Virus record (IMG/VR): IMGVR_UViG_3300044591_000979
Location: 1-36,767 of that record
DNA length: 36,767 nucleotides
Source: a virus
Reading direction: 5' to 3' (one strand)
In this document: in pieces, positions 4,524 to 36,767 of the stretch
How the letters are laid out: every line of letters starts with the position of its first letter
Numbering within the stretch: the first letter of the stretch is position 1
Notes under the pieces: generated by a model
Database searches by the model: none
What the model was told of the DNA's origin: nothing
The model's input: the letters and a program-made list of their open reading frames with translations, nothing else
Program-made: the position numbers and the translations under genes

Positions 4524-4792
4524 CATATACTGCCATTATATTAGGTCAGGAATTAGATATAGAATTTACGGCAGATTGCTGCATGGATAATACAGGTATT
4601 GGATCGTATGAGTACATGGGGTTTAATGGATATGATAAAGGATATGAATATGCTGATCTTAATTCATCTGTAAGCTGGGATGAAAGCCTTTATAATACGT
4701 GGCAGAATGCTGAAATAAAAAAGTTATCTGAAAGCAATAATGTTATTAATCAAATTTTAAAAACATACGAGTATGAAAAATCAAACTATTGA
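4508..4792 (+). CDS. Small acidic protein of unknown function
   Basis: A 94-residue protein starting at the ATG at 4508, overlapping the nuclease gene by 16 bases in another frame. An earlier in-frame ATG at 4448 would create a 76-base overlap and a first segment out of keeping with the rest. The product is acidic and rich in tyrosine and glycine in the middle (GSYEYMGFNGYDKGYEYADL), with two adjacent cysteines in FTADCC. No catalytic or binding motif is recognised. Its tight placement between the nuclease and SSB genes suggests a replication or recombination accessory protein. Confidence 0.6.
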   Translation: MECTITYTAIILGQELDIEFTADCCMDNTGIGSYEYMGFNGYDKGYEYADLNSSVSWDESLYNTWQNAEIKKLSESNNVINQILKTYEYEKSNY

Positions 4793-4964
4793 GATGGCAA
4801 AATTAATAGGCCATGCAGAAGGTCTTTTTAAATGTATACTTATTGATATAAAGTATAAAGGCATATTTGAGACAGATGCTGAATTAATTGAAAAGATAAG
4901 GCAGATGTGTGAGAATAGTGCAACCGATATAAACCAAAGATTCAAAGAAATAATTAAAGATTAA
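4773..4964 (+). CDS. Small helical protein of unknown function
   Basis: A 63-residue product, mostly predicted helix, that begins MKNQTIEMAKLIGH and overlaps the preceding gene by 20 bases in another frame. It lacks membrane segments and recognised motifs. It is 32 bp upstream of the SSB-like gene and is likely part of the same transcript. Confidence 0.55.
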   Translation: MKNQTIEMAKLIGHAEGLFKCILIDIKYKGIFETDAELIEKIRQMCENSATDINQRFKEIIKD

Positions 4965-6957: not shown

Positions 6958-7047
6958 GGCCGCTTGGCGTAAGTGGGAATAAATACCACCTTGGGATAGC
7001 GTCCCTGTTAAGTCAGGGAGATGCGGGTTCGAATCCCGCAGCGGCTC
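6958..7047 (+). tRNA. Unusual tRNA-like element (isotype unresolved)
   Basis: Ends 6958-6964 (GGCCGCT) and 7040-7046 (AGCGGCT) form a 7-bp acceptor stem with one G-T wobble. A perfect T arm lies at 7023-7039: stem GCGGG/CCCGC around TTCGAAT. CCA is not encoded. The interior is odd. One hairpin spans 6971-6992 with a 9-base loop and a bulge, and a second spans 7002-7019 (TCCCTG/CAGGGA) with a 6-base loop. Neither gives a standard 7-base anticodon loop with T33 flanking a clear anticodon, and the D arm is not canonical. At 90 bases it is long. I do not assign an amino acid. A degenerate tRNA, a tRNA mimic or an attachment-site relic are alternatives. The 96 bases upstream hold nothing I recognise. 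Confidence 0.5.
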
Positions 7048-8010: not shown

Positions 8011-8191
8011 TGCGCTGCAATTTACGAAGGCAAAGATTAATCGTATTATAGGCGTTTTTCTTTGCCTTTATTTGATCTTCTTGTTCTTCATCATAGTTAT
8101 TGTAAGATGCTTCCTCAACTGTTGTAATGACCGTTAGGGCGCATTCTATAACCATTGTAAGATCATATTCCTGATTTTGTTCTTCACTCAT
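7982..8191 (-). CDS. Small acidic helical protein
   Basis: A 69-residue protein coupled to the metallophosphoesterase by an ATGA overlap (8188-8191). It is acidic in the middle (DEEQEDQ) and ends with a leucine- and arginine-rich helix, LCLRKLQRIIRDL. It contains no recognised domain. It is the last gene of the long leftward unit and its 3' end overlaps the convergent DnaA-like gene. Confidence 0.6.
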   Translation of the reverse strand: MSEEQNQEYDLTMVIECALTVITTVEEASYNNYDEEQEDQIKAKKNAYNTINLCLRKLQRIIRDLPERQ

Positions 8192-8916
8192 AGGATTTTG
8201 CCTTTGTGGATGCGGTAATTACGCACGTGAAAGTCTTTATCATTTTCTGCCAAATCAACTATGGCAAATCCATGTGACCATTTGTTGATAGGCAGATAGG
8301 CCGGGTTAAGCTCGCAAAGGCAGCCTAAACTCCACGTTGTCGTAATTTCGCCGTTCATATTGCTTTCTGTGTGTTCACTTACAGCGTGATTGTGGCCTTG
8401 CATAGCGCTTACCTTGCCCCTCAAAAATAATCCCCTCGCTACGTTTACGGGACTAAATATGGACTGACCGAACTCATGACCATGTACAATATTCAAATTA
8501 TTGGCCTTTATAATGCGTTTATCGCCGATTAAATCAATGCCACGTGCATCTAATCCTAAAAGATGCTTCAGCTCAAATTCTCGCACCCCTAACAGCTCAG
8601 GAGCTACCCTCATTAAATAGTGTTCATATCTTTCCTCATGATTGCCTATTTTAAAATAAATCTTCGCTCCGAACTGACTAAGCACATCCAAAAAATCACG
8701 CGTTGCCTGTAGCTCATGCGCGACTGATCTTTTGCGGGGGTCTTTCATGAAACGACTTAATCCATAAAAATCAATAGTATCACCATTTAATAAGATCGCA
8801 TCCGGCTTTTCATCTTGTATTTTAAATAAGCAGGAATTAAGAGCATCGACGCTATGGTAAGGGATGTGTATATCACTTAAAACTACAATTTTTTTTGCTT
8901 TAATAATAAAAGGCTC
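8188..8916 (-). CDS. Metallophosphoesterase core, lacking an in-frame ATG after an amber codon
   Basis: The 242 residues after the TAG at 8919-8917 contain the whole calcineurin-like metallophosphoesterase motif set: L-S-D-I-H (D-x-H), N-G-D-T-I-D (G-D-x-x-D), F-K-I-G-N-H-E (G-N-H-E), V-H-G-H-E and G-H-N-H. The first ATG in frame is at 8748, which would remove the D-x-H motif and most of the second motif, so that start would give an inactive product. The region before it is in the same frame as the 88-residue ORF at 8917-9183, and known Bacteroidota phage relatives carry both parts in one protein. So the gene is either read through the TAG, started at a non-ATG codon, or broken. Confidence 0.75.
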   Translation of the reverse strand, partial: EPFIIKAKKIVVLSDIHIPYHSVDALNSCLFKIQDEKPDAILLNGDTIDFYGLSRFMKDPRKRSVAHELQATRDFLDVLSQFGAKIYFKIGNHEERYEHYLMRVAPELLGVREFELKHLLGLDARGIDLIGDKRIIKANNLNIVHGHEFGQSIFSPVNVARGLFLRGKVSAMQGHNHAVSEHTESNMNGEITTTWSLGCLCELNPAYLPINKWSHGFAIVDLAENDKDFHVRNYRIHKGKIL

Positions 8917-9183
8917 CTATTTTGTTTCCTCAGATTCAGGCAGTTTCCAAGGGTTTCGTGGGCGTTCTTCTGTCATATATAAGCTTTTATCTTTTATATA
9001 TTTTCTATTATGTGCGCCTGATTTTCCTTCAATCGTTCTAAGCACATTCCTTGCATGATCTATACTATTAAACGCCTCTTTGTTTTCTTTATACATAATT
9101 CTGGCAAGTGTTAGCGTTGGCATCTGCATGCCATACTTTTCCCTGTATTCCTTTGCTATGCCTATCTTGCTGAATTGTTGCAT
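8917..9183 (-). CDS. N-terminal part of the metallophosphoesterase gene, ends at in-frame TAG
   Basis: An 88-residue ORF starting with a TAATG overlap at the amidase stop. It reads Y-R-E-K-Y-G-M-Q-M-P-T-L-T-L-A-R-I-M-Y then H-A-R-N-V-L-R-T-I-E-G-K-S-G, a conserved N-terminal helical module that precedes the phosphoesterase domain in relatives, and ends L-P-E-S-E-E-T-K before TAG. The following codons (E-P-F-I-I-K...) continue in the same frame into the phosphoesterase. The module resembles a small HTH-like DNA-binding or partner-binding unit, but its function is not settled. Confidence 0.75.
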   Translation of the reverse strand: MQQFSKIGIAKEYREKYGMQMPTLTLARIMYKENKEAFNSIDHARNVLRTIEGKSGAHNRKYIKDKSLYMTEERPRNPWKLPESEETK

Positions 9184-9608
9184 TATATATTTTTATATTC
9201 TTCCTTAGCATCAAAGCATGGGCAAGCCTTTGATACATTCGGGAAATCTGTGTGGCCTTGTATAATTGGAAAAAACCTCTGTTTTAATACGACCTCATTT
9301 CTTACCTTCTTAATCGTTTCTATTAATGCTTTCTTTTGCGCATCCGTTCTATTATCCACAGGCTTACCATTCTTATCAACGCCGCCTATATATGATATAT
9401 GAATTGACTTTGTATTATAACCAGCGACGCCATTTGTAGGATTTTCAATATCAGATAATTTAACCACATTACCATTAGATTCAATTATATAATGATAACC
9501 TACATTCCGCCATTTTAAAACATTCTTCCAGTAATTTTTTATAGAGTCTATCTTTGTATTGTGAGGAGTAGCCGTGCAATGGATTACGATATATTCAATC
9601 CTTCTCAT
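9183..9608 (-). CDS. N-acetylmuramoyl-L-alanine amidase (endolysin)
   Basis: A 141-residue type 2 amidase, the size and style of T7 lysozyme. It opens R-R-I-E-Y-I-V-I-H-C-T-A-T with zinc ligand H10, then Y-H-Y-I-I around 38-42, the second ligand H119 in Q-G-H-T-D-F-P, and a cysteine ligand (probably C129) in K-A-C-P-C-F-D. It cuts the bond between muramic acid and L-alanine in peptidoglycan. It has no signal peptide and would need a holin to reach the wall. It is coupled to the spanin (ATGA at 9608-9605) and to the next gene (TAATG). Confidence 0.92.
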   Translation of the reverse strand: MRRIEYIVIHCTATPHNTKIDSIKNYWKNVLKWRNVGYHYIIESNGNVVKLSDIENPTNGVAGYNTKSIHISYIGGVDKNGKPVDNRTDAQKKALIETIKKVRNEVVLKQRFFPIIQGHTDFPNVSKACPCFDAKEEYKNI

Positions 9609-14123: not shown

Positions 14124-14426
14124 CTAACTATAAACGTGAGTTAAGTAATTTATCCAATCAGTTCCACCAGCAGGCTGTGCTGTTGCTGTTGCACTAACAC
14201 TCCCATCTGCTGCTATTGTTAATCTTATAATAGTCCACACAGTTGCACTTTCACTACTTCCTGACAAAGCTGTTCCACAATATAAATACACACCTGAAGA
14301 AGCAAACCTCCTTATTGTATTGTAAGGATTGAAAGCATCCCAAGCATAACCGTTCCACTTCCAAGAGATGCCTCCTGAAGTGTAAACCTGATTAAGGACT
14401 GGGGATGATGGGAAGTCTAATGCCAT
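14124..14426 (-). CDS. Small tail or fibre-associated protein
   Basis: A 100-residue protein beginning MALDFPSSPVLNQVYTSGG. The S-W-K-W-N-G-Y-A-W pattern near residues 21-29 is a common N-terminal motif in small tail proteins that precede fibre genes in phages of Bacteroidota and cyanobacteria. It has no signal peptide. It starts in a TAATG overlap with the gene upstream and ends two bases before the discoidin adhesin start, so it is part of the fibre block. Role: attachment or assembly of the fibre, by context. Confidence 0.65.
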   Translation of the reverse strand: MALDFPSSPVLNQVYTSGGISWKWNGYAWDAFNPYNTIRRFASSGVYLYCGTALSGSSESATVWTIIRLTIAADGSVSATATAQPAGGTDWINYLTHVYS

Positions 14427-19011: not shown

Positions 19012-19060
19012 GCTTTGCGAAATAATCTTTTAATTTTTTGATAGTTTTTTTACTATACAT
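18926..19060 (-). CDS. Short lysine-rich ORF, uncertain
   Basis: A 44-codon ORF starting MYSKKTIKKLKDYF and ending KDGKGGKP. It overlaps the last 8 bases of the connector-like gene and the first 86 bases of the tail-completion gene, in a different frame. Its basic composition may be real, as small basic ORFs sit in this place in some phages, but the overlap is large and there is no independent support. Confidence 0.25.
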   Translation of the reverse strand: MYSKKTIKKLKDYFAKHDQKPNSNTTKKDSNRPQAGKDGKGGKP

Positions 19061-25319: not shown

Positions 25320-25670
25320 TTATAAAGGTATGTAATAAGATAATATATGAAATCTAAATGTTAACTTGTACTGTGCGTAAATTAATTCAATAACTTCTAA
25401 ATCATTTAATGTAAAATCATCAGCACCATCTATTGTAGATGTTCCTGGATCAATTAAAATAACATCACCACTAACATTCTTTATTTTAAATATTTTTCCT
25501 GGTGTTATTATTGACGGATCAAATATTACATTAACATCATTATCTATAATAATAACTTGATCGGTATTTATAACATTATAATCTGTTGCTTCATCCCAAT
25601 ATGTTACATTTTGAGGAGTCTCATTAAGTCCTATTAAACCGCCAGGTATTACCTGTAAATTATCCGACAT
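25320..25670 (-). CDS. Small virion-associated protein, beta-rich
   Basis: A 116-residue protein beginning MSDNLQVIPGGLIGLNE. Its middle has I-I-I-D-N-D-V-N-V-I-F-D-P and G-D-V-I-L-I-D-P-G-T-S-T-I-D-G, as in small capsid-decoration or fibre domains. It overlaps the end of the protease gene by 11 bases and lies upstream of the glycosyltransferase. Likely a virion protein; no family assigned. Confidence 0.55.
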   Translation of the reverse strand: MSDNLQVIPGGLIGLNETPQNVTYWDEATDYNVINTDQVIIIDNDVNVIFDPSIITPGKIFKIKNVSGDVILIDPGTSTIDGADDFTLNDLEVIELIYAQYKLTFRFHILSYYIPL

Positions 25671-26277
25671 CTTTTAATAAATCTTTTAACTGATCAATGA
25701 TAACTTTGGCTGCCGTTTCCTCTGACATCTTTATCGACATTTTAATAGGCATCATATCAAACATACCCTCAACGCTAAATCCTTTGAAAGTGCCATCTTT
25801 TACTTTTGCCCACGCTTCGTCCGAATTAACCTTTGCACCCAAAAACCATGTCCCATCAGGCAGGCTTTCAAATTGCTTCATTTTCGGAATGCCTTTGCTT
25901 TCATCTGCTATCCATGATTGAAAAAAAACCATATCAACGGGCTTTGAGCTATCATGCATCTCGTTGCCGTTATTCTGGAATCCTTTGCGGTAAAACTTTT
26001 CAGCAATAGTGCGTATAGTATCTTTTGTAAAAAATACTTCATATTCTGTTCCATCTTCATCGCGCCTGAATATTTTTTTATCTGGTATCATTGCAGGGCC
26101 GATAACAACGCGCTCCTCTTCATTCACCACCGCAAAAGCTTGCATTTGCTGCTCATTAAAAGCATAAAAGCCCACCCCGATGGCAGGCATATCTACAAGT
26201 GCAACAGCATCTACTTCTACTGTGCTATCTACATTCTCGTTAATTGTCAGTTTATATACCGGTAAAGTCTTTTCCAT
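25660..26277 (-). CDS. XkdF-like prohead protease
   Basis: A 205-residue protein of the XkdF/S78_2-like phage protease family. Key features are G-F-Y-A-F and M-Q-A-F-A-V near residue 40-50, I-G-P-A-M-I-P-D-K-K-I-F-R-R near 60, the M-H-D-S motif with its histidine and serine near 105, and M-V-F-F-Q-S-W-I-A-D-E and G-T-F-K-G-F-S-V-E-G. These motifs mark the family, though the family catalytic set is not fully pinned down here. It processes scaffold or capsid during maturation. Unusually it lies downstream of the tape measure gene, not directly next to the capsid. Confidence 0.75.
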   Translation of the reverse strand: MEKTLPVYKLTINENVDSTVEVDAVALVDMPAIGVGFYAFNEQQMQAFAVVNEEERVVIGPAMIPDKKIFRRDEDGTEYEVFFTKDTIRTIAEKFYRKGFQNNGNEMHDSSKPVDMVFFQSWIADESKGIPKMKQFESLPDGTWFLGAKVNSDEAWAKVKDGTFKGFSVEGMFDMMPIKMSIKMSEETAAKVIIDQLKDLLKDVG

Positions 26278-36301: not shown

Positions 36302-36767
36302 ATTATTCGTTTTAGTTTAATTGGTTTGATTTCTTTGATATAGTTGTCAATAGCGTTAGAAGGTATCTTAGTTCCTGTAACCCGGTAGTTAATATACTCC
36401 CAAGCCTCTTCAAGAATGTCATTTATATTGTCAGGACATACTGATTCATTTATATCAAAAATAATATCCATACTCGCCACCACGTAGTTACCCACGGTCT
36501 TACCGTTTATAGCATTATCTATCTTTGTTCTTGCCGCTTTCATAATCTTTTGCACCTGCTTAAAAGGCATCTTAACATCTTCGCTTATTTTAGTCATTGA
36601 CCCCTTATCTAAATACAAAGAAACCATTGCCCGCTCCACCCAATGAAGATCAGCTTTAAGACTTTCCTCAACTCTATTTAACATAATATCTTTATCCCTA
36701 TTGTACTCTTCCTCTTCTATCTCAATATTATTATTAAATTCATTAGTAACTCTCCTATAAGTCCTGA
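36298..36767 (-). CDS. Sigma-like transcription factor, C-terminal part (continues from position 1-371)
   Basis: Continuation of the 237-residue gene that starts at 371. Bases 36641-36767 duplicate the left end, and the unique part ends with TGA at 36300-36298. The segment after the join reads W-V-E-R-A-M-V-S-L-Y-L and then M-T-K-I-S-E-D-V-K-M-P-F-K-Q-V-Q-K-I-M, followed by A-A-R-T-K-I. This matches the helix-turn-helix pattern of sigma70 region 4: a hydrophobic helix, a short turn, and a recognition helix ending in A-R-x-K-I. The stop overlaps the start of the next gene (ATGA, 36301-36298), showing translational coupling. A generic HTH regulator is the alternative. Placement at the head of the late block supports a role in switching on virion genes. 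Confidence 0.72.
   Translation of the reverse strand, partial: RTYRRVTNEFNNNIEIEEEEYNRDKDIMLNRVEESLKADLHWVERAMVSLYLDKGSMTKISEDVKMPFKQVQKIMKAARTKIDNAINGKTVGNYVVASMDIIFDINESVCPDNINDILEEAWEYINYRVTGTKIPSNAIDNYIKEIKPIKLKRII
36641..36767. repeat. Terminal direct repeat, right copy
   Basis: Exact second copy of bases 1-127. It makes the unique circular genome about 36,640 bp. It lies inside the sigma-like gene, not in an intergenic region, which argues for an assembly overlap over a functional packaging or attachment site. Confidence 0.95.

Follow-up and report, generated by a model that had tools for sequence, protein, structure and literature searches.

In the viral stretch of DNA analysed here (36,767 nucleotides, IMG/VR record IMGVR_UViG_3300044591_000979; referred to below as the window), a gene that fuses an N-terminal helical module to a metallophosphoesterase (MPE) is interrupted by an in-frame TAG codon, and the most likely explanation is that this is a recent nonsense allele. 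The gene is intact and fused in relatives, which carry a tyrosine codon at the site; the rest of the frame is undecayed and TAG is a normal stop in this genome. A real base, loss of the protein and a dispensable gene are inferred. Nothing here represents a new kind of system. As it stands, an ordinary nonsense allele or an error in a metagenomic phage matters chiefly for annotation, in which one interrupted CDS should be recorded, neither two genes nor recoding. Evidence that the second half yields a product would point to a one-step gene fission or a recoding event, either of which would carry greater weight.

The interrupted frame and its two domains

The interrupted gene lies on the minus strand at 8188..9183 as a single 331-codon frame in which TAG (8917..8919, minus strand) is codon 89. 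The N-terminal module (8920..9183, minus strand) consists of 88 codons from the ATG at 9183 and corresponds to a predicted three-helix domain plus linker. The MPE half (8188..8916, minus strand) consists of 242 codons followed by TGA at 8190-8188 and contains the D-x-H, GD, GNHE, GHE and GHNH motifs. In the ORF listing the region appears as 8917..9183 (88 amino acids) and 8188..8748 (186 amino acids, from the first ATG). This ATG, at 8746..8748 on the minus strand, is the first in frame past the TAG and is residue 57 of the MPE half; no ATG, GTG or TTG was found in frame between the two. The first metal-binding motif, read as D-I-H in the translation and alignment (8866..8874, minus strand), lies 5' of it. 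A product begun at 8748 would lack two metal-binding motifs, D-x-H and GD. The original prediction had described an 88-residue ORF closed by TAG at 8919-8917, a frame that stays open beyond it with the full set of MPE motifs, and a first ATG located past D-x-H; translation of 8188-9183 on the minus strand bore out all of this, with D15-x-H17 and G45-D46 both preceding residue 57.

The MPE half was matched by Pfam Metallophos PF00149 (E = 8e-9, 36.6 bits; cut-off 21.5) and by PHROG 221 (E = 1e-41, profile positions 111-340). The motifs D15-x-H17, G45-D46, G91-N92-H93, G146-H147 and G174-H175-N-H177 were invariant across 13 aligned sequences and lie in one frame. On these profile and motif grounds the half is classed as a calcineurin-like metallophosphoesterase. 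The split frame is not a chance reading, because the MPE half matches both Pfam and PHROG 221 and relatives fuse both halves.

In the predicted structure of an intact relative (L005), the three-helix domain spans residues 1-57 and the first MPE strand begins at residue 95; the tyrosine equivalent to the TAG is placed at the end of a low-confidence interdomain linker. A sequence search of the PDB returned no matches. Fold comparison using the predicted model (mean pLDDT 71) gave LpxH, Mre11 and Vps29 as similar structures, as expected for the superfamily.

State of the codon in relatives and selection on the frame

An IMG/VR scan for the MPE half found 80 contigs carrying a relative, at identities from 92% down to 66%. 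All 78 relatives that span the site have one open fused frame of about 320-331 codons. The expectation that homologues carry the N-terminal module and the MPE in one protein was thus confirmed, both in these 78 contigs and in annotated phages. At the position of the TAG, the codon alignment of the 78 relatives gave TAT in 50, TAC in 27 and TTC in one, so the residue is tyrosine in 77 of them and phenylalanine in the other. By this comparison the site is a well-conserved tyrosine, and TAG is one substitution away from TAT or TAC, with the third base changed. The original prediction had named CAG and AAG as examples of a sense codon at this site; the relatives have tyrosine codons instead. The original prediction had also proposed looking for the same TAG in related phages; it occurs in none of the 78, and IMG/VR scans for TAG in the same context, both exact and degenerate, found none (records very near the window possibly fall outside these scans). 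A second copy of the same phage population was not found; a real mutation is therefore indistinguishable from a consensus error.

Pairwise dN/dS between the MPE half of the window and its nearest relatives was 0.08-0.11, within the relatives' own range. For the window's branch, dN was 0.048 and dS 0.57, giving a dN/dS of 0.084 (bootstrap 0.036-0.143), and for the branches of four intact relatives dN/dS was 0.05-0.10; these branch rates are three-point estimates from pairwise distances and so less exact, and the dS of a fifth relative was negative owing to saturation and is meaningless. The neutral share of the window's branch is at most about 8%, an upper limit with the background taken as 0.065. 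Residues found in no relative numbered four in the MPE half and two in the N-terminal module, none of them at metal-binding positions. A pseudogene formed by long-standing decay was excluded, since the MPE half is without relaxed selection. Given full purifying selection, either the stop arose very recently, or the consensus is wrong at this base, or ribosomes still read through the frame's second half.

TAG use, genome integrity and a tRNA-like RNA

Stop codons were counted for 44 ORFs (TAA 25, TGA 14, TAG 5). TAG ends the ORFs at 19053, 22041 and 24305, the three sites named in the original prediction, and also those at 14124 and 35009; its claims that TAG is a plain stop elsewhere and that global reassignment is unlikely both held. 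The TAG at 19053 is a stop in three close relatives as well. At 19053-19055 (minus strand) the conserved TAG is directly followed by an in-frame TAA, forming a tandem stop. Set against nine related records, the window's ORFs showed no further interruptions, and no other conserved gene had an in-frame TAG. A second broken gene was suspected at 25660-26277/25320-25670, where the longer frame of the relatives suggested a frameshift, and was rejected because the C-terminus is complete. Compared with its relatives, the ORF at 25660-26277 (minus strand) is shorter by about 100 internal residues, which they carry after about residue 48; a module has been inserted or lost.

The window ends in an exact 127-base terminal repeat (positions 1-127 and 36641-36767), which makes it probable that the contig is a circular assembly, complete at about 36.6 kb. 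An Amidase_2 endolysin (9183-9608, minus strand) adjoins the interrupted gene on its upstream side. None of the nine related records matches it, which points to an apparent exchange of the lysis gene. Relatives sought in bacterial genomes yielded one distant match, on a contig binned as Taylorbacteria and uninformative about the host.

An unannotated tRNA-like RNA was located at 6958..7047 on the plus strand (Rfam general tRNA family, 31 bits; the only Rfam match). It has the acceptor stem, D-stem and T-arm of a tRNA, with bases at the U8, A14, G18-G19 and A21 places, and a hairpin NNGG-GAAURAAUA-CCNN inserted in the D-loop. The anticodon-arm place is taken by a variable hairpin of 14 to 53 bases, including a 3' linker, with a loop constant neither in length nor in sequence. 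A role for this RNA as a suppressor tRNA was rejected, as it has no CUA and no regular seven-base anticodon loop.

In a set of 13 phages, found via a neighbouring gene, pairing holds in 98.1% of cells, and both sides have changed in 18 of 25 pairs; when the partners were slid as a control, pairing fell to 37-49%. The D-loop core is kept in 12 of the 13, and in the remaining one (L028) the stem bases differ with pairing maintained. A search with the core pattern retrieved at least 119 IMG/VR stretches, in which the invariance of the D-loop core is partly built in, since the pattern required it. A covariance model recovered a full-length copy in all 72 new loci tested (63-113 bits; the longest contig 167 kb). 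Runs of weaker matches resembling ordinary tRNAs also occur on several of these contigs. Across the aligned matches, 97.6% of cells pair, in an alignment that was fitted to the structure and includes the weaker matches. Besides the copies in the 72 loci, counterparts lie at L083:11947-12036 (minus strand), L084:5576-5664 (plus strand) and L072:5472-5559 (plus strand). A DNA similarity search of the annotated phage collection gave no match. In L012 a second tRNA-like gene (4674-4746, minus strand) directly adjoins the first, and ARAGORN reads a two-base anticodon in it; L163 carries tandem copies (4545-4655 and 4766-4876, minus strand), and in both the arm in the anticodon place is 38 bases long. 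We conjecture that this may be a non-decoding RNA of tRNA shape encoded by phages, perhaps acting as a decoy or regulator. Widespread in phages, it may hold more interest than the interrupted gene.

Competing explanations and comparison with known systems

In the favoured explanation, a single base change at the third position of a tyrosine codon would have created TAG in this phage genome alone. Translation would end with the N-terminal module of 88 residues and produce no useful quantity of the MPE half, the next ATG yielding only the product deprived of its first two motifs. The mutation would be tolerated, the gene probably being accessory and dispensable in some hosts. What speaks against a nonsense allele is that continued translation would likewise leave selection on the MPE half unrelaxed. 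A distinctly less probable, though still serious, explanation is that a base-call or assembly error, or a mixture of strains, put the TAG into the metagenomic consensus and that the population's gene is intact. The window is an IMG/VR record whose exact repeat is typical of assembler output on circular contigs, the TAG is the sole interruption found in the genome, and the intact relatives and full purifying selection on the remaining frame agree with such an error. On the other hand, the site is not a homopolymer and the rest of the genome has no sign of poor sequence; in a short-read consensus substitution errors are rare and nonsense ones rarer. The original prediction had left readthrough, a non-ATG start and decay open, and it is decay, as a young nonsense allele, or else a base-call error that the evidence favours. 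Local readthrough, in which a suppressor tRNA of host or phage or programmed recoding would yield mostly the free N-terminal module and a small amount of the full-length fusion, agrees with a frame that is open and constrained 3' of the TAG, yet is very improbable: the stop is not conserved in any relative and is an ordinary one elsewhere in the genome. No stimulating structure was found 3' of the TAG (fold z-score +1.33, with 187 of 200 shuffles folding at least as well). ARAGORN called no tRNA in the window, and the single Rfam tRNA match, the tRNA-like element described above, has no CUA; furthermore, in L014 the tRNA-like element shares this arm where an anticodon would be, and the MPE codon is TAT. 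That TAG encodes an amino acid throughout the genome, the situation of some crAss-like phages, has a negligible probability. This reading could call on one in-frame TAG and no more, and is refuted at the level of this genome, where such a codon occurs in only one conserved gene, no suppressor tRNA was found and TAG closes five of 44 ORFs, relatives sharing the position of some of these stops.

A non-ATG start deserves separate mention. The last two bases of the TAG together with the next codon read AGGAG (8914..8918, minus strand), and ATT ATT (8902..8907, minus strand), six bases past it and still upstream of D-x-H, provides the only plausible non-standard starts near this motif. One substitution would thus have produced both a stop and a Shine-Dalgarno motif, and terminating ribosomes would reinitiate at ATT (8907 or 8904) to make a complete free-standing MPE. 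AUU, however, is a very weak start codon. The AGGAG is a suggestive feature, but this reading is unlikely. It accords with intact selection on the MPE half, with the place of the TAG at the end of the predicted linker between the two domains and with the free-standing MPEs of this type known in mycobacteriophages (PMC12287305). Against it, AGGAG is half-expected, GAG being the next codon in most close relatives and only TAG or TAA being available as a stop here. Moreover, the phage's starts are without Shine-Dalgarno enrichment (a five-base match in three of 41, versus about 9% of other ATGs), which makes initiation at AUU unlikely. Bacteroidia ribosomes do not recognise the Shine-Dalgarno motif (PMC9976891, PMC6847099), and the missing enrichment fits a Bacteroidia host, itself only inferred. 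Gene fission by a single base, with a stop and AGGAG at the domain boundary giving two coupled cistrons, the second from AUU, appears more doubtful still. Reinitiation after stops is described in a eukaryotic case (PMC4648390), and the literature on it and on AUU starts left the ranking unchanged.

The interrupted gene can be set beside three known systems. TAG-reassigned phages (crAss-like, phAss-1; PMC12386605, PMC10607447) likewise have an in-frame TAG within a conserved gene, but they have many such codons and a suppressor tRNA, whereas the window has one TAG, no such tRNA and TAG as a stop. The MPEs of cluster A mycobacteriophages (relatives of Bxb1 gp47; A10ZJ24 gp48) are 30.6% identical across the whole MPE half and are separate genes by design, with no stop inside a fused frame. 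For gp48 of A10ZJ24, phosphodiesterase activity has been demonstrated, and growth on M. smegmatis does not require it (PMC12287305); by analogy with this remote homologue (about 31% identity), the interrupted gene may be dispensable too. Closer are the PHROG 221 phage MPEs (e.g. those of Chryseobacterium phages MA9V-1/2, Microcystis phage Mvi-JY20 and Verrucomicrobia phage P8625), which are 44-46% identical to the MPE half and have about 85-100 further residues at the N-terminus of the same protein, as here (annotated CDS of 326-335 codons). The annotated phages that have the extension and the MPE together are those of Chryseobacterium, Microcystis and a Puniceicoccales bacterium. In these phages the gene is whole; in the window a stop separates its two parts.
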